Virus record (IMG/VR): IMGVR_UViG_3300038428_000087
Coordinates: 1 to 57,956 of that record
Source of the DNA: a virus
Direction: 5' to 3' (one strand)
DNA: 57,956 bases
How positions within the stretch are numbered: position 1 is the first letter of the stretch; each line of letters opens with the position of its first letter. Below are positions 2,111-57,956 of the stretch, one piece after another. The notes under the pieces were generated by a model, which had not been told where the DNA came from, did not search any database, and saw only the letters and a list, made by a program, of their open reading frames with translations. Made by a program: the position numbers and the translations under genes.

Positions 2111-2881
2111 GTGGAAACTGAAACACAGTTCACGTATTTTATAGGGCTAGACTTAGGTCAGGCAAGAGACTATACGGCGGTTGTTGTCTTAGAACACACA
2201 GAGACCTACGCAGTTCCACCACCCAAAACAGGTCGTGATGCTTTCGAGATGGTAGGTATCGGTGATTCTACCGGAAAGCCATCTAGACCAATATCATTTA
2301 CTCCAACAGCAGAAACGTACCATGTTCGGTACTGCCGCCGGTTTCCACTAGGTACACCATATCCAGAAATAGTGCGCTGGACTTCTACACAGGTCAGAAA
2401 TATAATGACTCGCGCGCGGGTTGGACTTATCATTGACGCTACCGGCGTAGGGCGCGCTATTTTAGATATGTTTCGTGACGCACAATTAAAAGTTGTTCCT
2501 GTTAACGTTACCAGCGGACAATACGACAACTTCGCAAAAGGAGTCTGGAACGTTCCTAAGAAAGACTTGGCGAGTGCAACTAAGTTTCTCTTAGACAAAA
2601 AAGTGCTCAAGATAGAAGATCCTACTGATAACACTCCAGGTGACAATGATCTCTACATCTCATCGGCGGAGCTGATAGAAGAAATCCAAAATTTTAGGAT
2701 AAAGATAAATGAGCGAACCAGACACGAAAGTTACGGGGCGTGGCGCGAAAATGATCACGACGACCTAGTCTTTGCTCTGTTTCTTACATGTTGGTGGTGC
2801 TTAAAAAGAAAAGAAAAGGCCGGAAAAGCATATACGCCGGTAATTGTCGGTGAAGACGAAGGAACCAAGCTGCCCGGATAA
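2111..2881 (+). CDS. terL: Terminase large subunit, nuclease half
   Basis: This 256-residue frame starts with GTG immediately after the TAA of the ATPase half and stays in the same frame. It has the RNase H-like terminase nuclease layout: GLDLGQARD with the first acidic residue near 14, GLIIDATGVGR with Asp near 109, and a late acidic cluster (ENDHDDL) near the C-terminus. The stop-start junction (TAAGTG) with a GGGTGG stretch about 10 bases upstream would allow termination-reinitiation. It would cut concatemers during headful packaging. The C-terminal domain is a sure match; whether it works as a separate polypeptide is inferred. Confidence 0.88.
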   Translation: METETQFTYFIGLDLGQARDYTAVVVLEHTETYAVPPPKTGRDAFEMVGIGDSTGKPSRPISFTPTAETYHVRYCRRFPLGTPYPEIVRWTSTQVRNIMTRARVGLIIDATGVGRAILDMFRDAQLKVVPVNVTSGQYDNFAKGVWNVPKKDLASATKFLLDKKVLKIEDPTDNTPGDNDLYISSAELIEEIQNFRIKINERTRHESYGAWRENDHDDLVFALFLTCWWCLKRKEKAGKAYTPVIVGEDEGTKLPG

Positions 2882-2904
2882 TTGAATATAGGAACAAGAC
2901 ATAA

Positions 2905-4689
2905 ATGCCCTCGAAAAAAGAAGAAACTAACGGTATAACGTCATTTAACGAGAACTCTTCACTTACTAATTTTACCAAAGCGAACCAAACTCCTGAAGAC
3001 GTAAAGAAATTAGTCGATCTCCAGGACCAGCCGTTTACGCCTCAAGGCTTGCCTACGCTGGGTTCAGGCGACTTAATGGGTGTCGGCCCATCCAGCCCAG
3101 GTCATCCTGCTCAAATTAATTACTTCGCAGAGTACGGCACTACCGGCCTGATGTACATACCTCCGTATGTATATGAAGAATGGCTGACTGAGCTCCAATA
3201 CACTCGCGGCGTCCGGATGTACAAAGAGATGTACACGATGGACGCTATTATTTCATCCATCTTTTACGCCGTGGAAATGAGCGTTAGAAGCGTTAATCTT
3301 TGGTGGGAAACCGCCGGAGCATCAGATGAGGACTTAAAAGCACTTCAATTTTACGAAGAGTGTTGGGAAGATATGAGCGTTAATCCACAAGACCTCGTAT
3401 CAGAAATTCTCAGCATGTTTATTTTCGGGTATCATCTCGCGGAGATAGTGTATAAAAAGAGAGAGGGCCCGCATCCTGAAGACAGCACGATAGATTCAAA
3501 TTATGACGATGGCCGCGTTGGGTGGAGAAAGTTTGCTACTAGGGCCCAAGAAACACTACTTAATTGGGACTTTGACGTTAACGGTGGAGTACGAGGCTTT
3601 AGGCAACTTGCGCCCCCGCATTTTATAATCACAGAGATACCGATAGAAAAACTGCTGCTTTTCAGAGTCAAACCGCGTAAATCCAATCCCGAAGGCGTCT
3701 CAATGCTTCGCGGGGCGTATCGGACGTATATGTTCAAAAAACTCGCTGAAGAAATAATGATGACGGGCATTGAGCGTGATTTGGCAGGCGTTCCGATCAT
3801 ACGGGCCCCAGGTGAAATAATAACCGGAGTAGATGCTAATTCTCAGTCTATGATGACCACGCTCACGCGCATCGTCAGGAACCTAAAACGAAACCAGGAC
3901 GAGGGCATTGTACTACCGTCTAACAACTATTCATCAGCAGACGGCGGCGGATTGATGTATGACGTCCAACTTATCGGCCCGCAATCGCAGAGGCAGTTCG
4001 ATATCGTTGGGATTATCCAGATGTTCTCTAAGTGGATAGCCATGACGATGTGTGCTGACTGGTTGATGCTCGGACAGGACGCTATAGGGTCATACGCGTT
4101 AGCGCAGACCAAGAACGATATGTTTGCGATGACGATTTCAACGATTCTCGATTCAATTTGTCAGGTCTTTAACTCATACGCAGTACCTCGCTTAGCGCAG
4201 CTTAATCCAGACGTAAACCCGGAAACGTTACCTAAACTCGTTCACGGCGATGTAAATACCGCACTGATAAGCGATGTCGGGATATTTTTAAACAACGTCG
4301 CGCGGGGCGGAGTTGAGATTCCAAACGACGTGCAATTTAGAAACGCCCTGTGGGATATGGTAGGACTTCCAAAAGAACCTGAACCTGAAGGCGAAACTGC
4401 TACGCCGGTGGATTCGTTATTACCTGGACAAACAGCCCAGAGATCAAGAGAACGAAACCAGAGGATAAACGAAGAGACGCCGTTCAGAGGAAAGCCACCA
4501 CGGGCGGTAGTTCAAACTCCTGGTCCAGTGAAACGGTCTGCTACAGTCGAAAAAATAACAAAACAACAGCCTAGTGTTTCAGACGTCCATGTAAAGCGGC
4601 CAAGTGAAGACATATCAGTTGCGTATCTACAGGGGACTAAACCAAAAAAGAAGCGAAAGAAAAATGGCAAAGGAACTGCTGGAAGTTAA
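2905..4689 (+). CDS. Portal protein
   Basis: 594 residues. The core (YKEMYTMDAII followed by VRSVNLWW and later FGYHLAEIVYKKREG) matches the Mu gp29/DUF935-like portal superfamily, and the gene lies directly behind terL. It would form the dodecameric vertex ring through which DNA is pumped. The C-terminal 90 residues are low-complexity, rich in Pro, Lys and Arg. They contain a segment at residues 555-576 (QPSVSDVHV ... ISVAYLQ) that strongly resembles residues 50-71 of the capsid candidate. The tail then ends in a basic KPKKKRKK stretch. The portal call is firm from sequence plus position. Confidence 0.85.
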   Translation: MPSKKEETNGITSFNENSSLTNFTKANQTPEDVKKLVDLQDQPFTPQGLPTLGSGDLMGVGPSSPGHPAQINYFAEYGTTGLMYIPPYVYEEWLTELQYTRGVRMYKEMYTMDAIISSIFYAVEMSVRSVNLWWETAGASDEDLKALQFYEECWEDMSVNPQDLVSEILSMFIFGYHLAEIVYKKREGPHPEDSTIDSNYDDGRVGWRKFATRAQETLLNWDFDVNGGVRGFRQLAPPHFIITEIPIEKLLLFRVKPRKSNPEGVSMLRGAYRTYMFKKLAEEIMMTGIERDLAGVPIIRAPGEIITGVDANSQSMMTTLTRIVRNLKRNQDEGIVLPSNNYSSADGGGLMYDVQLIGPQSQRQFDIVGIIQMFSKWIAMTMCADWLMLGQDAIGSYALAQTKNDMFAMTISTILDSICQVFNSYAVPRLAQLNPDVNPETLPKLVHGDVNTALISDVGIFLNNVARGGVEIPNDVQFRNALWDMVGLPKEPEPEGETATPVDSLLPGQTAQRSRERNQRINEETPFRGKPPRAVVQTPGPVKRSATVEKITKQQPSVSDVHVKRPSEDISVAYLQGTKPKKKRKKNGKGTAGS

Positions 4690-7970: not shown

Positions 7971-7987
7971 TAAAACGTCCTGAGAAA

Positions 7988-8001
7988 TTAAGCCAGATTA
8001 A
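7988..8001. promoter_or_regulatory. TTAAGCCAGATTAA palindromic site 1
   Basis: The site and the bases after it (AACGTCAAAAAACAAG) are nearly identical to the intergenic site at 54793. A TATA-like CTTAAATACT lies about 20 bases downstream at 8021-8030. It may be an operator and promoter serving the protease frame, although it would lie inside coding sequence if frameshifting occurs. Confidence 0.5.
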
Positions 8002-8092
8002 CGTCAAAAAACAAGTAACGCTTAAATACTCTCAGGAGAATTTTGAACCGATACAAAAGCAAGCAGCGGCCTGGCACTACACCGCGCGCCTG

Positions 8093-11924: not shown

Positions 11925-12101
11925 ATGAAGATGGCAGAAAAAAAGAAGGTTAATGGCAAATTAAAAGCAGAATCGACCGACGTACCGGCAGCGGTTGCAG
12001 CATTAAAAACCGCAGCAGGAGAGCTTAGATGTCAGACGGTGGGTTATCCGCTCACTCTTGAAGCAATGAGGCTCGCACGATTATACCGAAGTCACACATA
12101 A
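11925..12101 (+). CDS. 58-residue hypothetical protein
   Basis: ATG 11925 (or ATG 11931) follows a T-rich stretch and AGG. The product has a basic N-terminus and an Ala-rich helix. No family recognised. A 45-base AT-rich gap with TATA-like TTTTAAATATTC follows before the next gene, so a promoter may lie there. Confidence 0.5.
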   Translation: MKMAEKKKVNGKLKAESTDVPAAVAALKTAAGELRCQTVGYPLTLEAMRLARLYRSHT

Positions 12102-12146
12102 TTCAATTTTAAATATTCATTAAAAAAGGAGGTAGGAGGCCCAACT

Positions 12147-12926
12147 ATGGGATATAAGGATAACTTAGCGAGACTTTTTAGAGGCAGATGGTTTACCGGA
12201 GATTTACTCGCTACTAATACGATAACCGAGGACAATATCACCCCCGGAACGATAACCACCGCATCGATCAGCGAGACAGCGGGTATTACTTCAGAGCAGC
12301 TCGCAGCGGGTATTCTCACACAGGGAACGCGTACCCCTATAGGATTCGCTGAGATTACTGGATTACCGCTTACCGCTAGTAACCTCACACCTGGGACGTA
12401 TCCAATCTGCACCGTTCCTGGTGGTTCGCTTGTTATTGGTTGCATTGCGGTAGCGCGAATAGCGTTTGACGGTGATACTGCAATTACCGTGGGCAGAACC
12501 GCAGCACAAACGTCGCTTATGGCAGCTCCTACTTTGGCACCAATTAACTCAGTTACAGGGGATGACCCCGCCGTTCTAGGGACTGACCTATGGGTTACTG
12601 GCGGCCAGACAACGACCGCTGGAAACTGGACCGCAACGTTCCCGACGATTACAACCCCCGACAACTGGGAAGTAATTAATAAAGATACGGGTACTACGCT
12701 CACAGAAGCCGAACTCCCATTCACGCAAACAACGACTACTACAGTAATCAGTGCCGGGTCACAAACAAAAACTCCATCGAACTTCTCAGTAACGACGTGG
12801 GCGCATCCTAAATGGCATTGGTGCGCGAGCAATACAACGTATAACGCGTATCTAACGAGCACAACCGGCACAGTCGGCGCGTTGGATGTTTACATTTCAT
12901 ACATTCGCTACGTAATGGCGGGGTAA
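12147..12926 (+). CDS. Beta-rich virion protein, hypothetical
   Basis: 259 residues behind AGGAGGTAGGAGG. Thr, Gly and Ile dominate. The N-terminal stretch (TITEDNITPGTITTASI) looks like repeated short beta strands of a fibre or capsid surface protein, and the C-terminal half resembles a jelly-roll type domain. It is placed between connector and fibre-like genes, so a decoration or fibre role is inferred. No family recognised. Confidence 0.6.
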   Translation: MGYKDNLARLFRGRWFTGDLLATNTITEDNITPGTITTASISETAGITSEQLAAGILTQGTRTPIGFAEITGLPLTASNLTPGTYPICTVPGGSLVIGCIAVARIAFDGDTAITVGRTAAQTSLMAAPTLAPINSVTGDDPAVLGTDLWVTGGQTTTAGNWTATFPTITTPDNWEVINKDTGTTLTEAELPFTQTTTTTVISAGSQTKTPSNFSVTTWAHPKWHWCASNTTYNAYLTSTTGTVGALDVYISYIRYVMAG

Positions 12927-12930
12927 GATC

Positions 12931-14091
12931 ATGGTACAAAATGTCAACATCGTTAAAGTAGGCCCGACTAAAAATGCTAACGGGGCCGATGAACTCACTC
13001 CACTTAATATAGATTCAAGTGGAAATCTTGGCGTTAATCTCGAAACTGATATTGCTATAGGCTCAGTCAAGGTTTCAGACGGCACAACGCCCACACAACT
13101 GCTCGCGGTAGACTCAAATGGTAAAATCGGCATTAATGCGTTACCAGGGATTACGGGGACAGTTACCGCAACATTATCAAGTCAGGCGTTCACGAATACG
13201 ATCCTGACGGCGATCGAAGACACTATCGCGCACACTATCGGCGTACAAACAAAAGGCGTGCGAAACACATCGGGAGCGGTGGCGCACCGATCATCTCTCA
13301 CTGCTGCTGATGTTGTAGGTGCGACGAACACAGCGCCAACAGTTCCCACAGTCGCAGACAGCGGCGTAGCAGAAGGCACTCTTACTCACGCGCCGACCAT
13401 ATGGTACGCGGCATATGTTGTCCGAAACGGCATGGGGGTCACGATGGCCTCCGCTGTTGGTTCAGTATCATTGTCCGCAGCACATTCTATTAGAATAACC
13501 ATACCCGCAGCGTGGGGTTCAAGTCTTGCTGACACGGACTTAGTATACGAAATATTCCTTTCTACTGACTCAGGCGCACCAAAGCACGTCTGTACATTCA
13601 CTGGCGCACAGCTTGCAGCTAGTGGGGGTGTAGGAACGGGGTGTATCTGTACGAGTGCAGAAACGCCGGTTACGAATTCAACAGCTAGAGCAGCGTGGGC
13701 GTGTGATATAGGCGTCACTGGAGCAAACGCGCAGACAACGGCAGCGCAATTTGTAACAAGTACGGCATTTTCTCAGGCTACGATAGCTGGTTTAACACCC
13801 GTTTCAACGGCAGGATACAATAACGCTGATGTGTTTATAGATGCACAACAGACGGCATATACGACTACAGCGCCTTCATTAACGCTTGTACCCCTGTTCC
13901 TTAACGATAAACAAGGAGCAAACTACCATATCGGTGCGCCGATATACGTAAGCCTTCTTAACGGCACAGCGCAATCGTTTAGGCAGATGTTTAACCTTAC
14001 CACAAACGGCGACAGTATGATGATTCTCGTCGCGTCAATTACGAACGTAACCATAAACAGGATAGACGTGACGCCAACCAGTGTGGTGTAA
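12931..14091 (+). CDS. Fibre-like virion protein, hypothetical
   Basis: 386 residues. The N-terminus contains beta segments with NGADELTPLNIDSSGNLGVN and a later SNGKIGINALPGITGTVTA, typical of phage fibre shafts. The C-terminal 250 residues are Ala/Thr-rich beta domains. Only four bases separate it from the upstream gene. Receptor contact or capsid decoration is inferred; no enzyme motif is seen. Confidence 0.6.
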   Translation: MVQNVNIVKVGPTKNANGADELTPLNIDSSGNLGVNLETDIAIGSVKVSDGTTPTQLLAVDSNGKIGINALPGITGTVTATLSSQAFTNTILTAIEDTIAHTIGVQTKGVRNTSGAVAHRSSLTAADVVGATNTAPTVPTVADSGVAEGTLTHAPTIWYAAYVVRNGMGVTMASAVGSVSLSAAHSIRITIPAAWGSSLADTDLVYEIFLSTDSGAPKHVCTFTGAQLAASGGVGTGCICTSAETPVTNSTARAAWACDIGVTGANAQTTAAQFVTSTAFSQATIAGLTPVSTAGYNNADVFIDAQQTAYTTTAPSLTLVPLFLNDKQGANYHIGAPIYVSLLNGTAQSFRQMFNLTTNGDSMMILVASITNVTINRIDVTPTSVV

Positions 14092-39380: not shown

Positions 39381-39506
39381 ATGTTAACTAAGAGTGAAAA
39401 GACGATGATACAGGTAAGCAAGAAAACGAGGGAAGAGCTGCATGCGATTGGCAAGAAAGGCGAGTCGTATGATACTATTATCCGCCGTTTGCTAAGAGGT
39501 GAATGA
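39381..39506 (+). CDS. VapB/DUF7557-like small DNA-binding protein
   Basis: 41 residues from ATG 39381, or 33 from ATG 39405. VSKKTREELHAIGKKGESYDTIIRRLL is the common archaeal antitoxin-like ribbon pattern ('s..t...L...g.kgesyd.ii..Ll'). No toxin follows, only the lipoprotein gene, with which it overlaps (ATGA). It is likely a solitary regulator. Confidence 0.7.
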   Translation: MLTKSEKTMIQVSKKTREELHAIGKKGESYDTIIRRLLRGE

Positions 39507-40063
39507 AAATGAAACAAATTGTAATCTTTGGAGTTATCGCACTCATCATCTGCGCCATAGGAATAGCTGGCTGCACAACCCAAATCCCCGCACCAAATAA
39601 CCAGTTGAACACGACTAATGTTACTACGACTTCCGCTGTTTCTAAAGCCGTTGTTACACCTACGCCTACTGTTGTAGCCACGCCAACGCCAACAGTGACA
39701 CCTTTACCTACTCCTATACCTACACCTATACCTTCGCCTTTACCTACCCCGATAACGCCTACCGTGATGGGAATAAGCATGATGCCCGTTGCAGTCATCC
39801 AAGGAGAACCGATCGCTTTTACTACCTGGGTAAACGCTAACGGCCACGCAGTTCCGAACCTACCAATCAACTGCTACGTGGATGGTGTGTTTATAGGAAC
39901 GGTATCTTCCGCTAATGGTTACGCACAATTTACCACGGGATCATTGAACGTGCCGCTTGGTACTGTTACGGTAACGGCGTCGTTCGCTGGAAATAGTCAG
40001 TACGGTGCATCAAGTCAAGGTGGAAGCTTTAAGTTGGTAGTAGATTTGAACGCCACCAGATGA
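39503..40063 (+). CDS. Surface lipoprotein with Thr/Pro stalk and Ig-like domain
   Basis: 186 residues. The signal peptide VIFGVIALIICAIGIAGC ends in a lipobox Cys (residue 24). A Thr/Ser/Pro stalk with many PTP units (about residues 45-88) holds an Ig-like domain away from the membrane (VAVIQGEPIAFTTWVNANGHAVPNL ... VTASFAGNSQYGASSQGG). That domain resembles the Ig-like ends of the virion enzymes at 2-1036 and 56060-57199. Display on the infected cell suggests receptor masking or superinfection exclusion. Typical of methanogen surface proteins. Confidence 0.75.
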   Translation: MKMKQIVIFGVIALIICAIGIAGCTTQIPAPNNQLNTTNVTTTSAVSKAVVTPTPTVVATPTPTVTPLPTPIPTPIPSPLPTPITPTVMGISMMPVAVIQGEPIAFTTWVNANGHAVPNLPINCYVDGVFIGTVSSANGYAQFTTGSLNVPLGTVTVTASFAGNSQYGASSQGGSFKLVVDLNATR

Positions 40064-40110
40064 GTGAACAAAATTGTTTAACAGCGGAGGGCGTTACGGC
40101 GTTATCTAAG

Positions 40111-40132
40111 ATACAAAAGAAGGGTTTTGTAT
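40111..40132. promoter_or_regulatory. ATACAAAA/TTTTGTAT inverted repeat before small-gene strip
   Basis: A perfect 8-bp stem with a six-base loop lies 25 bases before the first small gene of the cassette strip. A close relative is at 41068-41091. It could end the lipoprotein transcript or bind a regulator. Confidence 0.4.
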
Positions 40133-40157
40133 TCTGAAGAAATGAGGGGTTTGAAAA

Positions 40158-40358
40158 ATGACCAACTTCGTGGACATTGATACACTCGATATGATTACGC
40201 AGCAAATCGTTTATGACGCTCAGATAGAAGCCTCAATTTGTGGGAATTGCGTACATAACCGAAGATACTACGACGACAGCCATCAGTGTGAACGCAGACC
40301 GTCAGTATGTGACATAGAGATGATTGAACTTAAAAAATGTGGGTGGAAGAAAAAATGA
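40158..40358 (+). CDS. Small Cys-rich protein (zinc-binding type)
   Basis: 66 residues; starts with the GGGTTTGAAAAATG element. CGNCVHNRRYYDDSHQCERR and a final KKCGW suggest one zinc site. Its end overlaps the next ATG. Function unknown. Confidence 0.7.
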   Translation: MTNFVDIDTLDMITQQIVYDAQIEASICGNCVHNRRYYDDSHQCERRPSVCDIEMIELKKCGWKKK

Positions 40359-40513
40359 CCATCAAATATCTTGAACACTACGATGATATAAACCAAACGG
40401 GCGAGGTAGTAATCCGATTTAATTATAAAGATTTAGACCAAGCAAGTGAAACGTGGCTCGGGAATTTGCGTCTTCAGTTAGATATAATTAAGGATATCAT
40501 AGAAGAAAAATGA
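40355..40513 (+). CDS. 52-residue hypothetical protein
   Basis: ATG overlaps the previous stop (ATGA). The product starts with a beta pair (MTIKYLEHYDDI, VVIRFNYKDL) and ends with a helix (LRLQLDIIKDIIEEK). Its TGA is part of the following initiation element. No family recognised. Confidence 0.6.
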   Translation: MTIKYLEHYDDINQTGEVVIRFNYKDLDQASETWLGNLRLQLDIIKDIIEEK

Positions 40514-40678
40514 GGTTTGAAAAATGACAGAAACAGGATACGAACACATTGGTGGTGAATCTGAAGAGCAACCAGAACCGGACGTGTTGTTAGATTATAT
40601 CACATATGGGTTCAGTGGTATGCCAGTTCCGAGAAAATGCGCCAAGAAAATATGGAAAAAATGAGGTTTGAAAAATGA
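40514..40678 (+). repeat. 165-bp perfect direct repeat, copy 1
   Basis: Identical to 41111-41275. It covers GGTTTGAAAAATGA, a complete 46-codon gene and the next GGTTTGAAAAATGA, so each end of the repeat unit is the initiation element itself. Confidence 0.95.
40524..40664 (+). CDS. 46-residue hypothetical protein, duplicated gene copy 1
   Basis: The product has an acidic start (MTETGYEHIGGESEEQPEPD) and a basic end (RKCAKKIWKK). An identical copy is encoded at 41121. The perfect identity shows a very recent duplication. Function unknown. Confidence 0.7.
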   Translation: MTETGYEHIGGESEEQPEPDVLLDYITYGFSGMPVPRKCAKKIWKK

Positions 40679-40911
40679 ATGACGATGCTGATTTTGACCG
40701 AGCCGTGAAAGCATATAAACAGTCATTGAAAGGACGACGTATTATAATCCTCAACAAAACAACAAAGCGCCTTATTAAAAGTTGCACAGAGTACTGGGAT
40801 TATCCATCATACGACTATCTGTTAGTCGATTCAATAAATGCGTTGTTCGATAAGAAGCACGTAGAGGGACTGAAAAATGGCTATACATTATCCGCCGTGC
40901 TGCGACTGTAA
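40675..40911 (+). CDS. 78-residue hypothetical protein
   Basis: Starts behind GAGGTTTGAAAAATG. Charged helical segments (FDRAVKAYKQSLKGRRIIILNK) lead to a Tyr-rich centre (CTEYWDYPSYDYLL). It overlaps the next small gene by 35 bases. No family recognised. Confidence 0.6.
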   Translation: MNDDADFDRAVKAYKQSLKGRRIIILNKTTKRLIKSCTEYWDYPSYDYLLVDSINALFDKKHVEGLKNGYTLSAVLRL

Positions 40912-41035
40912 GCATTTGCAACGCAGTAAAAAAACTCGAAAAGGAATTCAGATGTTTTGGGAGTGCGAAGCCGGTGAGAAGGTGAGGCACCCCACGACTA
41001 GTTGTAAAAGTTTCGAAGAAGGCTACGTGTCTTAA
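40877..41035 (+). CDS. Small Cys-rich protein
   Basis: 52 residues, ATG preceded by CTGAAAA, a worn form of the shared element. PPCCDCKHLQRS followed by FWECEAG and TSCKSF gives a probable zinc site. Such C-x-x-C-K-H...C proteins recur in this genome (47776, 50384, 50524). Confidence 0.6.
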   Translation: MAIHYPPCCDCKHLQRSKKTRKGIQMFWECEAGEKVRHPTTSCKSFEEGYVS

Positions 41036-41067
41036 AAGATGTGACAAAATAGCTCTTACGTAGTGAG

Positions 41068-41091
41068 GATACAAAAGACATGTTTCGTATC
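41068..41091. promoter_or_regulatory. GATACAAAA/TTTCGTATC inverted repeat
   Basis: The hairpin has one mismatch and lies 30 bases before the second copy of the duplicated gene. It parallels the inverted repeat at 40111. Both precede a gene run that starts with a G-rich form of the shared initiation element. Confidence 0.4.
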
Positions 41092-41110
41092 TTAACGGAG
41101 AACGTAGGGG

Positions 41111-41275
41111 GGTTTGAAAAATGACAGAAACAGGATACGAACACATTGGTGGTGAATCTGAAGAGCAACCAGAACCGGACGTGTTGTTAGATTATATCAC
41201 ATATGGGTTCAGTGGTATGCCAGTTCCGAGAAAATGCGCCAAGAAAATATGGAAAAAATGAGGTTTGAAAAATGA
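41111..41275 (+). repeat. 165-bp perfect direct repeat, copy 2
   Basis: Identical to 40514-40678. The flanks differ at once beyond both ends, so exchange probably took place inside the short GGTTTGAAAAATGA repeats. Confidence 0.95.
41121..41261 (+). CDS. 46-residue hypothetical protein, duplicated gene copy 2
   Basis: Same protein as at 40524, no change. The gene is now followed by a zinc-ribbon gene instead of the 40675 gene, showing that the cassette moved into a different context. Confidence 0.7.
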   Translation: MTETGYEHIGGESEEQPEPDVLLDYITYGFSGMPVPRKCAKKIWKK

Positions 41276-41424
41276 CCAAGTGCATAGATTGCAAAATGGA
41301 GATATTTACTGGGGATGACGGCACGCATCTTTGCGCCGCATGCCACGCGGAACGCTGGAAAAACGCCCAACCATTAGTAACTATTTATGATTTAGGTAAA
41401 GAAAAAAAGAGGTCTGAAAAATGA
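41272..41424 (+). CDS. 50-residue zinc-ribbon protein
   Basis: MTKCIDCKMEIFTGDDG followed by HLCAACHAE gives CxxC...CxxC(H), a treble-clef or ribbon zinc site. It starts with GAGGTTTGAAAAATG, and its end (GAGGTCTGAAAAATGA) forms the element for the next gene. Nucleic-acid or protein binding is likely. Confidence 0.65.
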   Translation: MTKCIDCKMEIFTGDDGTHLCAACHAERWKNAQPLVTIYDLGKEKKRSEK

Positions 41425-41666
41425 CCGATAAAGAAAAATGGCTGGAGATATTAGCCAATTTATACTGGAGCATTGAGGACATAGAAGGCTCCGCGTATTG
41501 TGGTTCTATTGCATGCATCCAAAAAATCCTTGACGAATTAGATATAACCCGCGAAGAATTAGATTCATATATGAATGACGGTGATAGTGACTGTCACTGG
41601 TGGAACCCCTACTGCAATAAAAACTGGGTTTGTAAGTCATATGAAGAACAATATGAGAAGAAATGA
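41421..41666 (+). CDS. 81-residue acidic hypothetical protein
   Basis: Coupled by ATGA to the zinc-ribbon gene. Helical acidic N-terminus (EKWLEILANLYWSIEDIEG) and a Cys/Trp-rich end (CHWWNPYCNKNWVCKSY). No family recognised. Confidence 0.65.
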   Translation: MTDKEKWLEILANLYWSIEDIEGSAYCGSIACIQKILDELDITREELDSYMNDGDSDCHWWNPYCNKNWVCKSYEEQYEKK

Positions 41667-41678
41667 GAGGTTTGAAAA

Positions 41679-41840
41679 ATGACTTTTATTTGTTGTGCGT
41701 ACACCTTGCACCTACTCTGGGAAGATGAAGTTGTGATTGTAAACGGAGTTCCTTACTGTAAAGAACACGCCAAAGATGTAACGTTTATTCCACGGATGGT
41801 AGAACTAGCAGAACGCCAGCGACAAGAGGCCGAACAATGA
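41679..41840 (+). CDS. 53-residue hypothetical protein
   Basis: Starts behind GAGAGGTTTGAAAAATG. It has a CC pair near the start and C..H (YCKEHAKD) in the middle, possibly one zinc site. The C-terminus is a charged helix, and its stop overlaps the next ATG. Confidence 0.6.
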   Translation: MTFICCAYTLHLLWEDEVVIVNGVPYCKEHAKDVTFIPRMVELAERQRQEAEQ

Positions 41841-44475: not shown

Positions 44476-45618
44476 ATGGACGATATCATGCGTGAACTAG
44501 TAGAAGAGGCCCCGGTCATATTCAAAGACGAACGCACCCTCACCCCACTATACGCTCCAAAGAAGATAGTCGAACGGGATGAGATGATTCGGGAGATAGG
44601 GAAGAACATACGAAAACTGGCACGCGCTCAATTACCACATCACATGTTAATCTTAGGTGGAAACGGCACGGGGAAGACCGTTACGGTCCAATACGTCATG
44701 CACCAGATCAGCGAGGTCGCGGCGTTTTATTACATCCACTTGCATGGCAGCGATGAGGTTCCATTGTATGAGACATTGCGGTATATAGCCGATGATTGTC
44801 TTTGTATGATCCAGGCTAAAGACATCTCTTGGGCTGCCGTTTATGATCAGTTCGCCGACTCTCTACGTCAGCAGAATAAACCACTTATCCTCGTGCTTGA
44901 CGAGTTTGATTATTTTATTACCGGTCCGATGTTCAAGTTGCTCAAGAAGTTGTCACGTAATCCAAACGTCTGTATGATAGGGATAAGCAATGATTATAAT
45001 GTTCTTGACATGGTAAACGACCCAAGCTTTCTTTCTGCCTTCAATCCGCAGCGTGTGGAGTTTCCAGAATACACAGGTGAAGAGCTTGAAACGATCCTAC
45101 AAGAGAGGGCTAAAGAGGCGTTACTCCCTAACACACTGGATGAAATTGTTATTAAGCTGATTGCCGCATTTACCTTAAATAAACGAAGCGGAGATGCTCG
45201 TTATGCGTTGGATCTTTTAAAATATTCTGCAGACAATAGTACCGATAACAACCGAGAAAAGATATTCGAAGAGGATGTGCGCACATCAGTTGAGCGTTTA
45301 GAGCTCGTTTATAATGTGAGCATCGTCACGCGTTTGCCTCCACAACTCAAGCGCATCGCTGCCCAGGTAGTGAAAAAAGAAGTAATCAAACGCAGTGAGG
45401 TGCTCGATGCGTATAACAAAGCAGCTAAGCGACATGGCTTTGCGACGCTTTCTAGAACTAAGTTTTCATTTTATTTAAGTTCACTTGAGCGGAAGGGTAT
45501 TATCGAGCGAACAAACAAAGGTGGGGGCAGAGGTAAAGGTATCGAGCGGCTTGTGCGGTTGTCTCCTAACCTTGACATTGATGAGACTAAGGAGGCATTA
45601 GTCGATTTTGCGGGATGA
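44476..45618 (+). CDS. cdc6: Orc1/Cdc6 replication initiator
   Basis: 380 residues, normal for the family. Walker A GGNGTGKT (61-68), Walker B LVLDEFD (139-145), sensor 1 MIGISND (167-173), and a C-terminal winged helix (about 300-375, with SRTKFSFYLSSLERKGIIE). It would bind the neighbouring inverted repeats and start replication. The gene lies directly beside the origin, as in most archaea and their large plasmids. No helicase or polymerase is present, so host enzymes must be recruited. Confidence 0.93.
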   Translation: MDDIMRELVEEAPVIFKDERTLTPLYAPKKIVERDEMIREIGKNIRKLARAQLPHHMLILGGNGTGKTVTVQYVMHQISEVAAFYYIHLHGSDEVPLYETLRYIADDCLCMIQAKDISWAAVYDQFADSLRQQNKPLILVLDEFDYFITGPMFKLLKKLSRNPNVCMIGISNDYNVLDMVNDPSFLSAFNPQRVEFPEYTGEELETILQERAKEALLPNTLDEIVIKLIAAFTLNKRSGDARYALDLLKYSADNSTDNNREKIFEEDVRTSVERLELVYNVSIVTRLPPQLKRIAAQVVKKEVIKRSEVLDAYNKAAKRHGFATLSRTKFSFYLSSLERKGIIERTNKGGGRGKGIERLVRLSPNLDIDETKEALVDFAG

Positions 45619-45970: not shown

Positions 45971-47029
45971 ATGGCAACCACAAAAGAAGAAAAAGAAACT
46001 GAAAGAAAATTACCACAAGAAACGAAACGGCTTTTTATCAGCACTAAGCTTATTCGTCCAAATCGGTTCAATCCACGGACCGAGATAGACAAAGAAAGCG
46101 ATTCAGAGTTACTACAAAGCATCGCGGTCCGCGGCGTAGAAACTGAAATACGCGTACGCCCTCTCGAAGAACCCGACGAAGAAGGGCATTACTATGAAGT
46201 CTTTGACGGGGACCGCAGGTTACAGGCTGCAATCAAGGCAAAGCATGCTACAGTACCGATTATCATACTATCCAAATCAGACGACGAAGTCCTGGAATAC
46301 GGCCTCGTATCAACAATCCGCCGAGGGCTGCGCGGCGTCGAGATGGGGAGGACTCTTTTAGAACTCCAGAAAAGGTTTAGTTCAAAGTACCCAAACCAGA
46401 GAGCAATGGCACGCAAGCTTGGCATCTCGACCGCCAGGATTAATCAATACATTAAACTCGTCACCGACCTGGACCCAGAAGTACAGGATTTAGTCGCACC
46501 GGCAGATCAGCGAGGGAATATACCAGAAGGCGCGATAACCGACCGAATAGCGTATGAGATATCCCACATTCCGGACAAGGAACGGCAACGCGAAGTAGCT
46601 AAAGAAATCGCAACACACCCAAAGCTTACCAGCGATAGGGCCAGGCTCCTTGTCTACGAGGCACGCGACGAACCTGAAACACCAGTACCGGAATTAACGC
46701 AACGAAGATTAGAACATATCACCCCGTACCGGCCTACGCTTGTAATGTCAGCAGAAGATTATGAAGCACTAAAGTCCGGGAAGAAAAGGGTCTTAATAGA
46801 GCGGAAACGCAGGCCGGGGATGCAAAAAGACGCGGTAGTCGAACCACTCATTAAAGCCGAATCGCTCGAGCTCGCAGACGTGTTCGACCGTCCGTTAGGC
46901 AGGTTCAAAGACCTCGACGCAAAGAGCGCAGGGTATCCTGACCTTGAAAGCTTTAAAGAAGCGTGGTTAGAACGGTTTGGTGGAGAGTGGAACCCGCAAG
47001 AAGTAGTCTACGTCCTGTTGTTTAAGTGA
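45971..47029 (+). CDS. parB: ParB-like DNA-binding protein
   Basis: 352 residues. LIRPNRFNPRTEIDKES, then FDGDRRLQAAIKAKHATVPIII is the ParB/Srx nucleotide-binding box (with GDRR), followed by an HTH (NQRAMARKLGISTARINQYIKL). The C-terminal 150 residues are specific. No ParA ATPase is encoded here, so it may be a ParB-type regulator, a CTP switch that recruits host factors, or a partition protein using host ParA. Behind it stands a strong terminator. Confidence 0.85.
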   Translation: MATTKEEKETERKLPQETKRLFISTKLIRPNRFNPRTEIDKESDSELLQSIAVRGVETEIRVRPLEEPDEEGHYYEVFDGDRRLQAAIKAKHATVPIIILSKSDDEVLEYGLVSTIRRGLRGVEMGRTLLELQKRFSSKYPNQRAMARKLGISTARINQYIKLVTDLDPEVQDLVAPADQRGNIPEGAITDRIAYEISHIPDKERQREVAKEIATHPKLTSDRARLLVYEARDEPETPVPELTQRRLEHITPYRPTLVMSAEDYEALKSGKKRVLIERKRRPGMQKDAVVEPLIKAESLELADVFDRPLGRFKDLDAKSAGYPDLESFKEAWLERFGGEWNPQEVVYVLLFK

Positions 47030-47070
47030 AGCAATCTTGTTAACTCAGGTTAACATTGCTTCCCTTTTTT
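47028..47070 (+). terminator. Long hairpin terminator after parB
   Basis: GAAGCAAT pairs with ATTGCTTC, and inside it GTTAAC pairs with a second GTTAAC around TCAG, with a CTT bulge; CCTTTTTT follows. Confidence 0.75.
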
Positions 47071-52216: not shown

Positions 52217-52387
52217 ATGACACGAACATGCGAAAAGTGCGGAAATCCTATAGCCGATGGCGACCTGGCCGAAACCCTCTGGAAATCCCCCCAAAGGTGG
52301 CACCTGCACTCGTTTTGTACTAGGTGTCATGCCATAATCTACGCCGATTTCATATATCGGTATAACCTAAAACGAGCTCCGAAATGA
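52217..52387 (+). CDS. 56-residue zinc-binding type protein
   Basis: CEKCGNPI with HLHSFCTRCHAI is a LIM/ribbon-like site. ATGA coupling to the next gene. Function unknown. Confidence 0.65.
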   Translation: MTRTCEKCGNPIADGDLAETLWKSPQRWHLHSFCTRCHAIIYADFIYRYNLKRAPK

Positions 52388-53586
52388 GTAAAAAGGTCGT
52401 CGCGTGTCCGCTCACTCGTTCAACGGTTGAAGTCAAGTATTGTGAGACGTTCTGTGAACTTTACTGGGTTTGTGTAATCTATAAAAATGAATGGAAAAGA
52501 GCTGTTGATTGTTGCAAATTTAAAAATCAAAAAAGCTATATCTGGCCCAATTTAAATCACAAAGGAAAAATGAACAACTGTCGCAACGTCGTAAGCTTTT
52601 TTTCCGGCTGCGGTGGCTTTGATCTCGGATTCAGAAAGGCCGGCTACCGTATTGTATTGGCCAACGACGTTTGGCCCCCCGCCGCCAAAACATACAAACT
52701 GAATTTTCCGCGAACGAAGCTCATTTTGAGAGACATCCGAGAGATCGAACAATCAATGTTGGACTCCATCCTCAAAGCTAAAAAGGTGGAAAAAGTTCAA
52801 GTGATCATAGGGGGGCCGCCGTGCCAATGCTACACGCGGATGAACAACAATAATCCCCACAAAATAAACGACGAAAGAGCGCAGCTATTCAAGAGCTACA
52901 TCAATATGGTAAACGTTGTTAAACCGGACTTCGTCGTAATGGAGAACGTCCCAGATCTCCTTATAAGAACAAACGGCGACGGTTGCTTTTACCAGGATTT
53001 AATTGCGAATGAATTTGCCAAAGCTGGTTACAGATCTTCATATGATATCCTCGAAGCGGAGCGGTACGGTGTTCCTCAACGAAGAAGGCGAGTGATATTC
53101 TTGGCGACGAATAGAGACGACGTTGAACTGTCCTTTCCTGCTCCCTCGTCAAAAACAGCAAAAGTCGGCGAATTCTTGAGGAAGATCAATGGATTACAAA
53201 AGCTTGACAATCACGAGTTTGTGCCGAATAATCGGGAAGTGCTCGAGCGCATCAAGCACGTTCCGCCAGGGGGCTATTATGAACAGTTGCCGGAGCATTT
53301 GAAAGTGAAGAAGTTCAGAGATGGCAAATGGGTCGTTGCAAAGCGCTATGGGAGTTACTATCGGAGACTGAAAAGCGATGAACCTGCGGTAACGATTACA
53401 GAGAATTACCTTATACACCCCGACGAAGACCGCTATCTGACTAACAGGGAATTGGCTTTGCTCCAAACGTTCCCTCTAGCCTTCAAATTTTTTGGCACCA
53501 GAAAGGAAGTAAGGCAACAGATCGCCAACGCTGTCCCTCCAAAGTTCGGGGAACGCATTGGAAAACACCTTTTGTCTTATTTGTGA
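52384..53586 (+). CDS. dcm: DNA (cytosine-5) methyltransferase with chimeric N-terminus
   Basis: 400 residues. Motif I FSGCGGFDLGF (73-83), IV GGPPCQ with catalytic Cys 147, VI ENV (187-189), VIII QRRRR (232-236) and X QIANAVPPKFGERIG at the end are all present, so it should be active. The first about 55 residues are a Cys-rich small protein coupled to the upstream gene by ATGA and unlike any methylase. A second start, ATG 52570, has AAAGGAAAA upstream and gives a normal methylase. The Vsr gene follows on the other strand. No restriction enzyme was seen, so self-protection from host restriction is likely. Confidence 0.9.
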   Translation: MSKKVVACPLTRSTVEVKYCETFCELYWVCVIYKNEWKRAVDCCKFKNQKSYIWPNLNHKGKMNNCRNVVSFFSGCGGFDLGFRKAGYRIVLANDVWPPAAKTYKLNFPRTKLILRDIREIEQSMLDSILKAKKVEKVQVIIGGPPCQCYTRMNNNNPHKINDERAQLFKSYINMVNVVKPDFVVMENVPDLLIRTNGDGCFYQDLIANEFAKAGYRSSYDILEAERYGVPQRRRRVIFLATNRDDVELSFPAPSSKTAKVGEFLRKINGLQKLDNHEFVPNNREVLERIKHVPPGGYYEQLPEHLKVKKFRDGKWVVAKRYGSYYRRLKSDEPAVTITENYLIHPDEDRYLTNRELALLQTFPLAFKFFGTRKEVRQQIANAVPPKFGERIGKHLLSYL

Positions 53587-53852
53587 CGCACAGCGCTTTT
53601 GACCTTCTGAACGCACATTTCGGGTTCGGATTTGATCTCGTGTTCCCAAAAACGGATCACTGTCCAGCCCAAGCCGTGCAATTGATTGTTGACTTTTTCG
53701 TCTCTCTCCATGTTGTACCGTATCTTGTTTCTCCAATAGTCATTTTTCAGTTTGCCTTCAAGGTTTTCCCAGTTGTAACCGTGCCAAAAATGACTGTCGA
53801 CAAAAACGGCGACCTTCTTGGTCGGAAACGCGATATCAGGCTTTCCAGGCAT
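53577..53852 (-). CDS. vsr: Vsr-type mismatch endonuclease, N-terminally truncated
   Basis: 91 residues. PGKPDIAFPTKKVAVFVDSHFWHGYNW, then the RDEKVNNQLHGLGWTVIRFWEHEI end are the Vsr core with the catalytic Asp (of KPD) and His residues. Upstream in the same frame one can still read LLNNGLRYRIHLKEM, typical Vsr sequence, but the usual opening (IRGKDT region) and a start codon are missing. It overlaps the methylase end by ten bases, tail to tail. Vsr repairs T:G mismatches caused by deamination at Dcm sites. Confidence 0.8.
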   Translation of the reverse strand: MPGKPDIAFPTKKVAVFVDSHFWHGYNWENLEGKLKNDYWRNKIRYNMERDEKVNNQLHGLGWTVIRFWEHEIKSEPEMCVQKVKSAVRHK

Positions 53853-53861
53853 TTCCTTAAG

Positions 53862-54685
53862 GTGAATCCTGTAGCGAAGCCCGTTATTTAGAAGGCATTT
53901 ATGATAAATATACTCATGATGAATTAAAGGCGATAAGCAAAGGCAAAGGCGTCTATGAGTTTACCATAACACCTCCTAAAGTAAACATTGACCATACCGG
54001 GGAAGAAATACGCTTTGGGTTTTTTACTGATTCTCACATGGGAAGCATTTACTATCATGAAGCGTTTTTAGACGATTTTATAAAAACCTGCAAGGAAAAG
54101 AAAGCTCAGTTTTGCGTAGCCGCTGGCGACATCACACACGGCATGGATTCAAGGAAATACAATTTGCTCTACGAGTTAAAACACATCGGCTACGCGGCAC
54201 AAAAAGAATACGCCGAGGAACAACTATCAAAAATACCTTTTAGGACGTATTTAGTCTCTGGAAACCACGACAGGTGGTATGAATCAGTAGGCGCAAACAT
54301 CGTGAAAGATATATGCGAAATGGTTCCAAAGACAGAATATATCGGACGTGATGAAGGCGATATTGAAGTTGAAGGGATATCTATACGTGTTTTTCACGGT
54401 GAGGATTTTTCGAGCTATGCAACGAGCTATCGGGCTCAGAAGCTTATCGAGAGCTTCACTGGTGGAACAAAGCCCAATGTGCTTCTTTTAGGTCACGCAC
54501 ACAAACAAGGGTACTTCTTTGAACGCAATATTCACGCGGTAAGTGGCGGAGCGTTATCTACACAATCTAAATGGATGCGAAGTAAACGAATGGCTAATCA
54601 CGCCGGATATCATTTTATAACTATGCGGGTCGATGATGAGGGCGTCGCCGAGTTCACACTAACCTTTAGGCCATTCTATGTTTGA
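53862..54685 (+). pseudogene. Calcineurin-like metallophosphoesterase, 5' end lost
   Basis: The ATG at 54038 gives 215 residues with GDITHG, SGNHDRW and GHAHKQG metal-binding motifs, but the first motif, FFTDSH (54017-54034), lies just upstream of it. The frame stays open back to 53861 and reads as real protein (RYLEGIYDKYTHDELKAISKG), yet holds no ATG, GTG or TTG. The start was evidently lost where the Dcm/Vsr cassette joins. From ATG 54038 the enzyme would lack its first metal ligands. Nucleic-acid phosphodiesterase is the usual role. Confidence 0.75.
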
Positions 54686-54702
54686 AAAATGAGGTTTGAA
54701 AA

Positions 54703-54789
54703 ATGACTCCTACTGACGCCATCATCTTGCTAGTCGGCGTGGCCGTGTTCTATACAATCATAATATACATCATCTTAACAACAACATAA
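54703..54789 (+). CDS. 28-residue membrane peptide
   Basis: Starts behind GAGGTTTGAAAAATG, the cassette element otherwise seen at 40-42 kb. The peptide is one hydrophobic helix (AIILLVGVAVFYTIIIYIIL). The GTTTGAAAAATGAGGTTTGAAAAATG doublet here suggests cassette recombination at this place too. Confidence 0.5.
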   Translation: MTPTDAIILLVGVAVFYTIIIYIILTTT

Positions 54790-54792
54790 AAA

Positions 54793-54806
54793 TTAAGCCA
54801 GATTAA
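54793..54806. promoter_or_regulatory. TTAAGCCAGATTAA palindromic site 6 with TATA box
   Basis: The site plus AACACCAAAAAACAAG equals site 1 at 7988 except for two bases. GTATAAAC at 54827-54834 is a good TATA box 60 bases before the next gene. Confidence 0.55.
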
Positions 54807-54850
54807 CACCAAAAAACAAGAAAAAAGTATAAACTAGTAAATTAATTTTT

Positions 54851-57588: not shown

Positions 57589-57956
57589 CTCAAGTATATT
57601 ACGACCACTCGAACGGCAAAAGATATTTTATGGGGTGCAATCGCGACCCACCACACGCCGATGCAAAGTTACTTTTAACTCGTAAACAACAGGCGGAACT
57701 ACCTAGTTCTTATACTATTATAGATGGCACGCCGGTTGAAGATCAGGGAAATGAAGGTTCATGTACAGGCAACGCAGGCGACAACGCTTCTAAGATCCGA
57801 AGTTATACAGCAACAGGCAACTACTTCAACGGTGCCCGTCAGCAGATATACCAATGCGCCTTAGCGCACGATGGCAACCCACTACAAGATGTCGGTAGTT
57901 CATTAAGTACTATAGCGTGGGTTCTTGAGAACATCGGAGTTGCTGTTGAGTCTGAG
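57585..57956 (+). CDS. Papain-like cysteine protease, 5' part across junction
   Basis: First 124 codons of the protease that continues at position 2. It starts with ATG 57585 overlapping the previous TGA. The opening (TQVYYDHSNGKRYFMGCN) is short and has no signal peptide. PVEDQGNEGSC with the catalytic Cys is near residue 60. See the entry at 2-1036 for the remaining domains. Confidence 0.85.
   Translation, partial: MTQVYYDHSNGKRYFMGCNRDPPHADAKLLLTRKQQAELPSSYTIIDGTPVEDQGNEGSCTGNAGDNASKIRSYTATGNYFNGARQQIYQCALAHDGNPLQDVGSSLSTIAWVLENIGVAVESE
57731..57956. repeat. Right copy of terminal direct repeat
   Basis: Same as 1-226 apart from one base (57857). Its presence shows that the window is longer than the genome by 226 bases. 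Confidence 0.95.

Follow-up and report, generated by a model that had tools for sequence, protein, structure and literature searches.

A short repeat that serves as ribosome-binding site and start codon heads a strip of tiny genes in the accessory region of the virus genome analysed here, and whole genes bounded by it have been gained, lost, duplicated and moved among related genomes. Element-sized homologous recombination acting on a joint that couples translation appears to be the best explanation, with a probability of roughly 0.6; the repeat would then be a translated joint linking promoterless mini-gene cassettes.

The window, i.e. the whole stretch of DNA that was analysed, is the virus record IMGVR_UViG_3300038428_000087 of 57,956 bases, the ends of which (1-226 and 57731-57956) are identical over 226 bp. 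The junction of the record ends is spanned by two contigs from other samples, G003 and G001, each with one copy of these 226 bp, indicating a circular or terminally redundant genome that is near complete. The window has genes for tailed-virus-type portal, terminase and major head proteins, for a protein of the archaeal Orc1/Cdc6 type (44476-45618), for a ParB-like protein, and for several HNH nucleases and a C5 DNA methylase. The virus is called archaeal-type because of the Orc1/Cdc6 gene, and on the same ground its host is putatively archaeal. The sole match of the capsid protein (43%) is to a 9-kb contig assigned to Acidobacteria by binning and was not accepted as evidence for such a host. 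Distant blastn searches against phage records gave no match, and the 187-aa neighbour gene and the right-flank pattern, used as queries, retrieved no relative other than G002 (IMGVR_UViG_3300038425_000044). This sister is 85-95% identical to the window across most shared segments and about 94% identical in the flanks of the strip. A more distant relative, the 53-kb G016, has a major head protein 85% identical to that of the window, and L158 (IMGVR_UViG_3300009760_000082) is the sister of G016.

The strip and the second site of the element, at 54.7 kb, comprise the following features.

39503..40063, + strand: left flank gene, lipoprotein/Pro-Thr-rich, common to G002 (93.5% nt)
40110..40133, unstranded: inverted repeat GATACAAAA-N6-TTTTGTATT, ESAS-like, 5' of the first joint
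40136..40162, + strand: joint 1 (GAAGAAATGAGGGGTTTGAAAAATGAC)
40158..40358, + strand: cassette gene 1, 66 aa, CxxC-type, no G002 counterpart
40356..40513, + strand: cassette gene 2, 52 aa from ATG 40356; its short joint GAAGAAAAAATGAC overlaps the upstream stop
40502..40528, + strand: joint (GAAGAAAAATGAGGTTTGAAAAATGAC)
40514..40678, + strand: 165-bp direct repeat, copy 1, element-cassette-element
40524..40664, + strand: cassette gene 3a, 46 aa
40654..40678, + strand: joint
40675..40911, + strand: cassette gene 4, 78 aa, no G002 counterpart
40862..40880, + strand: eroded joint (GAGGGACTGAAAAATGG)
40877..41035, + strand: cassette gene 5, 52 aa, Cys-rich, no G002 counterpart
41068..41091, unstranded: second inverted repeat GATACAAAA-N6-TTTCGTATC; with the downstream TTAACGGAGAACGTA, the version heading the G002 strip
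41111..41275, + strand: 165-bp direct repeat, copy 2
41121..41261, + strand: cassette gene 3b, identical to 3a
41272..41424, + strand: cassette gene 6, 50 aa, CxxC-type, ending within the next joint
41411..41424, + strand: joint, variant GGTCTGAAAAATGA
41421..41666, + strand: cassette gene 7, 81 aa, no G002 counterpart
41657..41683, + strand: joint where colinearity of the window and G002 resumes
41679..41840, + strand: element-headed gene, common to G002 at 96% aa
41837..41998, + strand: right flank, 53-aa membrane protein, common to G002
54679..54706, + strand: two 14-bp units forming a tandem joint, which is fused to the metallophosphoesterase gene at its native TATGTTTGA stop
54703..54789, + strand: gene for a 28-aa membrane peptide, with the 54.7-kb joint at its head

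Of the eight element-type starts of tiny genes between 40.1 and 41.8 kb, seven have the element, GGTTTGAAAAATGA, at their head, one of the seven with a single mismatch; the eighth is eroded. Exact copies are located at 40148, 40514, 40665, 41111, 41262, 41669 and 54693, copies with one mismatch at 41411 (GGTCTGAAAAATGA) and 54679 (TGTTTGAAAAATGA, the tandem 14-bp partner of the 54693 copy), and the eroded copy (GGACTGAAAAATGG) at 40867. Matches numbered nine on the forward strand and none on the reverse, and a reversed control pattern gave no matches. An earlier, sequence-only reading of this DNA had reported tiny genes headed by the element, and the copies are found at its positions, all on the + strand; its 41412 copy starts at 41411 and is the one-mismatch variant, and its element near 54693 is an exact copy that forms part of a tandem of two 14-bp units (54679 and 54693). 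The perfect 165-bp duplication that it described also holds in the assembled sequence: 40514-40678 and 41111-41275 are 100% identical (165/165 bp), the unit is bounded by the element at both edges, and the sole longer repeat in the window is the 226-bp record-end pair.

Among 12-mers that end in a start ATG, the commonest has six copies in the accessory region of the window and ten in G016. A control set of 88 unrelated virus loci (873 kb) was picked for a similar 16-17-mer and is hence biased against the claim; there the same measure gave one occurrence in 57 loci, two in 29, three in one and four in one. A broad scan for the element returned 69 stretches, nearly all lone chance copies in unrelated viruses, so that presence of the element alone is no evidence; many copies occur only in this virus group. 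Two adjoining tiny genes starting with GGAGGTTTGAAAAATG in an unrelated virus (L113:12809-13020) were set aside as convergence.

The joint consists of a Shine-Dalgarno site and a start codon, with GAGG or GGGG 8-12 bases 5' of the ATG. The stop codon of the upstream gene mostly lies within or beside the joint, at -15, -13, -6, +1 or +5 from the A of the start codon, and all three frames are represented. In G016 the most used upstream frame reads through the joint, so that unrelated proteins share an ...EKEAEK end. A ribosome leaving any upstream frame would be released at or near the next start, an arrangement that suggests termination-reinitiation coupling at the joint, and stops in three frames would let cassettes join in any combination, irrespective of phase. 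On the minus strand of G016 (L068, 12322-12561) one joint contains an extra A, and the two cassettes that it links are read as a single ORF with EKEAEK-M at the internal junction. The small genes shared between sisters have a summed pN/pS of 0.25, i.e. they are under purifying selection, and CxxC pairs are present in many of the cassette proteins. Pfam searches with the cassette proteins revealed no convincing family or function; that they act against host functions or defences is a guess.

The A-rich/TGAGG stretch upstream (-27 to -15, outside the search motif) carries 5.0 bits, compared with 0.8 bits for other genes. Conservation reaches upstream of the Shine-Dalgarno site into the end of the preceding gene, beyond what a plain ribosome-binding site would require. 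This observation bears on an alternative that we consider unlikely, in which the element is a convergent translation signal, the best termination-reinitiation or ribosome-binding sequence for the host, while illegitimate recombination occurs anywhere and selection leaves the breakpoints at gene boundaries. The element is indeed a good combination of Shine-Dalgarno site, spacer and start, and looser versions such as GGGGTGAAAAATGA precede some other genes of G016. However, convergence does not readily explain conservation extending into the coding end of the previous gene, nor a spacer that is uniform within each lineage yet differs between lineages (GGTTTG, GGCTG and GGCCG).

Inverted repeats of the form GATACAAAA-N6-TTTTGTATC (9-N6-9) precede three joints, at 40110, at 41068 and in G002. 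At the head of its strip G002 has the version that lies mid-strip in the window, with TTAACGGAGAACGTA behind it, and therefore the inverted-repeat block has moved too. We did not adopt an RNA hairpin for these repeats, as one arm has an uncompensated change (TTTCGTATC) and that copy has no hairpin fold. The joints themselves form no stable fold under RNA parameters, their energies of -0.3 and -1.5 kcal/mol being within those of shuffles. The inverted repeats could also point to a regulon tag, a viral or host regulator binding them together with the element, with repetition kept for co-regulation and recombination as a by-product. The same layout is found in the start-associated sequences (SAS) and ESAS of unrelated phages, for which a regulatory role has been proposed (PMC3203893, PMC7302621). 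Within the window, however, only two joints have the inverted repeat, no regulator is known, and co-regulation alone leaves exact joint-to-joint insertions and deletions unexplained, which makes this explanation distinctly improbable.

Such insertions and deletions were found in the sister genomes. Between the same flanks (the 39503-40063 gene and the 41679 gene onward) G002 carries five different tiny genes, none of which has a counterpart in the window and all of which are headed by GGTTTGAAAAATG; colinearity is restored at the joint that precedes the 41679 gene, which both genomes have. At 54.7 kb G002 contains one additional 61-codon cassette, absent from the window, G001, G003 and G004, which is inserted at the native metallophosphoesterase stop (TTTGA). 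In the window and three further contigs the native stop TATGTTTGA is fused to the tandem joint; the metallophosphoesterase gene of G016 also ends with TATGTTTGA, but no element follows it. The initial bases of homology probably came from this native stop. The element has no part in two other differences of G002, in which the Cdc6 gene and the 42.2-44.0 kb block are absent or replaced.

A search of G016 for GGTTTGAAAAATG found none. This genome has ten exact copies of GGCTGAAAAATG, mostly as GAAAAAGAGGCTGAAAAATGAC, in a tiny-gene strip elsewhere in the accessory region, and its element version GAAAAAGAGGCTGAAAAATGAC is present at about 15 genes. L158 lacks seven consecutive G016 cassettes (G016 minus-strand coordinates 11927-13209), and the left side of its single remaining joint corresponds to the left outer joint of G016 and the right side to the right outer joint. 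The crossover at this junction (a) is confined to 16 identical bp, GGCTGAAAAATGACTA, and the element sequence that the junction has in common with both parents argues against a merely convergent signal. Two further two-cassette indels between G016 and L158 lie at joints (junctions b and c), the right end of junction b being a weak match to the element only, and G016 contains an older two-cassette duplication. In the third lineage, L170/G013, the element version is GGCCGAAAAATG; the longer string AAGAGGCCGAAAAATGAC is absent from every other record of the collection. The MTFESVC cassette occupies one locus in G016 and another in L170, joints included; in L170 it adjoins the homologue of the G016 5585 gene, from which it is separated by about 6 kb in G016. 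Comparison of the strip among related viruses therefore bears out the shuffling proposed earlier, in that cassettes have been swapped, copied, moved, deleted and inserted, and the element forms the joints; a fixed gene order without exchange at the element was looked for in these genomes and was not found.

Genes can also move without the element, since one gene of 44 aa (MTSCTEC...) is located at two loci, behind the metallophosphoesterase gene in G019 (L076:7987-8121) and in the 42-kb-type region in G020 (L077 minus, near 13889-14023), with hardly any shared joint. The two copies are near-identical across the ORF and unlike outside it, so that the gene moved as an exact ORF, as the convergent signal would allow.

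The sister lacks 26 of 35 element-headed genes, compared with 40 of 132 other genes (p=3e-6, although genes lost together are not independent). Because several genes may vanish in one event, the count of junctions is fairer: between sisters, all six element junctions of shared genes were broken, compared with 13 of 42 others (p=0.002), in a small sample of about six element events. One of the six element junctions (39503) depends on a two-mismatch element in G002. The 13 broken non-element junctions indicate that the accessory region is variable in general, which counts against a recombination role of the element and is consistent with convergence. Genes of up to 100 aa in G016 speak against convergence: 11 of 14 with the element are missing from the sister but none of the 13 without it (p=3e-5, not event-independent).

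For element-sized homologous recombination, the identical 14-24 bp at both ends of a cassette would provide a substrate for homologous or annealing-type recombination between joints, which, within one genome or between co-infecting genomes, could delete, insert, duplicate or relocate whole genes intact. Repeated exchange would hold the joint uniform within a lineage while lineages drift apart. A length of 16-24 bp is short for recombination of the RecA/RadA type, which counts against homology, and the genomes yielded no recognisable protein for single-strand annealing. In eight records, including the window, no match was found to Phage_integrase (PF00589; 14/14 controls positive), and none in eight records to Resolvase (PF00239) or to the RecT and ERF families. 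As these records gave no recombinase family and the joints do not fold, plain short-homology recombination by host or viral functions is the simplest reading. The earlier view of the element as both ribosome-binding site and homology patch agrees with the Shine-Dalgarno/start anatomy and with the junctions, from which we infer the short-homology recombination.

A very improbable alternative is that the strip is a true recombination-site array, its element being the target of a site-specific recombinase that escaped recognition. The joints do behave as recombination sites, and many viral genes belong to no known family; on the other hand, the eight records contain no tyrosine or serine recombinase family, the joints lack inverted symmetry or fold, and the crossovers fit plain homology. 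An integron proper was rejected, there being no PF00589/PF00239 match in the eight records and no attC-like fold at the joints. The description "integron without an integrase" stands as a functional analogy, given the rows of small cassettes with uniform boundaries that differ in presence and order (gain, loss and reordering being found here), and fails as a classification: integrons have an integrase and an attC fold, neither of which was found, whereas the boundary here is the ribosome-binding site and start itself and direct homology would suffice. In a fuller form of the homology reading, for which we see about even odds, the strip would be an integrase-free array in which one sequence acts as stop in every frame, ribosome-binding site, start and recombination patch, is kept uniform within each lineage by its own exchange (concerted evolution) and permits the virus to trade complete mini-genes with neither reading frame nor expression impaired.

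An assembly artefact at short repeats is favoured by the metagenomic origin of all of the genomes and by the 165-bp repeat, the length of which is close to that of a short read. Against this, several records from different samples have the strips, whose open genes are under purifying selection, and the joints are well below usual assembly k-mers, which are far longer than 16-24 bp. An artefact at joints of this size is unlikely, and artefact as a general explanation has a very slight probability, the lowest among those considered.

Phage mosaicism through boundary or linker sequences, or through moron accretion, generates novel joints at gene boundaries, whereas here one uniform joint is repeated across many genes. 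Whether mosaicism results from boundary sequences or from random recombination and selection is an old question, and the same short joint at several sister-genome exchanges makes the boundary-sequence model testable by counting.

SAS are known from cluster K mycobacteriophages (Pope 2011, PMC3203893) and have been surveyed in 188 genomes (PMC12699233); Microbacterium cluster EF phages have similar start motifs (PMC7302621). SAS and ESAS resemble the present element in being short asymmetric repeats at the ribosome-binding sites of many accessory genes, in one orientation, conserved beyond Shine-Dalgarno needs and with a lineage-specific consensus; the upstream stop may fall within the repeat, and inverted repeats lie 5' of a subset (here three sites, 9-N6-9). 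The SAS consensus, GGGATAGGAGCCC, is unrelated to the element and SAS genes mostly follow gaps of more than 50 bp, whereas the joints here are tight or overlapping, with most upstream stops at -15 to +5, include the start codon and belong to an archaeal-type virus. The accessible part of Pope 2011 proposes no recombination (PMC3203893), and exchange at the repeat, seen here by sister comparison, is not reported for SAS in the parts available. The promoter early stem-loop (PeSL) of T4 is credited with gene shuffling (Arbiol 2010, as cited in PMC3950731 and PMC4503421), and a comparable motif occurs in the haloarchaeal virus HGTV-1 (PMC3950731). Both are repeated regulatory sequences between small accessory genes with modular shuffling, as in G016/L158 junctions a-c and the window and G002 strips; PeSL is an intergenic early promoter with a stem-loop, whereas the joint here is translational, has no hairpin or demonstrated promoter and partly encodes the tail of the upstream protein.

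The claim that such an arrangement had not been described is thus too broad, as start-associated repeats and repeat-mediated shuffling are already known, although their combination, with junction-level evidence of exchange, was not found in the searchable literature. The element joins two known ideas and adds direct junction evidence. If the frame-independent joint is real, it would let small accessory proteins be exchanged by simple modular means, could be used as a search key for such genes in archaeal viruses, and would suggest a second possible role, besides regulation, for the unexplained start-associated sequences of actinobacteriophages.

Several minor observations were made in the same genomes. 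In the window the C5 DNA methylase gene (52384-53586, +) is followed on the opposite strand by an endonuclease gene (phrog_13076, 53604-53891, -), resembling a Dcm/Vsr-type pair. Two adjoining genes in L170 (reverse complement, 2581-4094), itself from a virus of archaeal type, resemble an IS200/IS605-type pair of TnpA and TnpB, as judged by eye only. A 2.3-kb insertion adjoining parB in G002 (L064:7533-9829) carries a second ParB-like gene (362 aa) and is bordered on both sides by a 34-bp repeated stretch (window 46999-47032). Tandem repeats that separate the accessory genes from the parB region (L158:13347-13799 and L068:18101-18404) are possibly centromere-like. Finally, a 34-bp repeat (91%), AAATTAAGCCAGATTAAC..CAAAAAACAAG, lies in intergenic positions at 7985-8018 and 54790-54823, and G002 has this repeat too.
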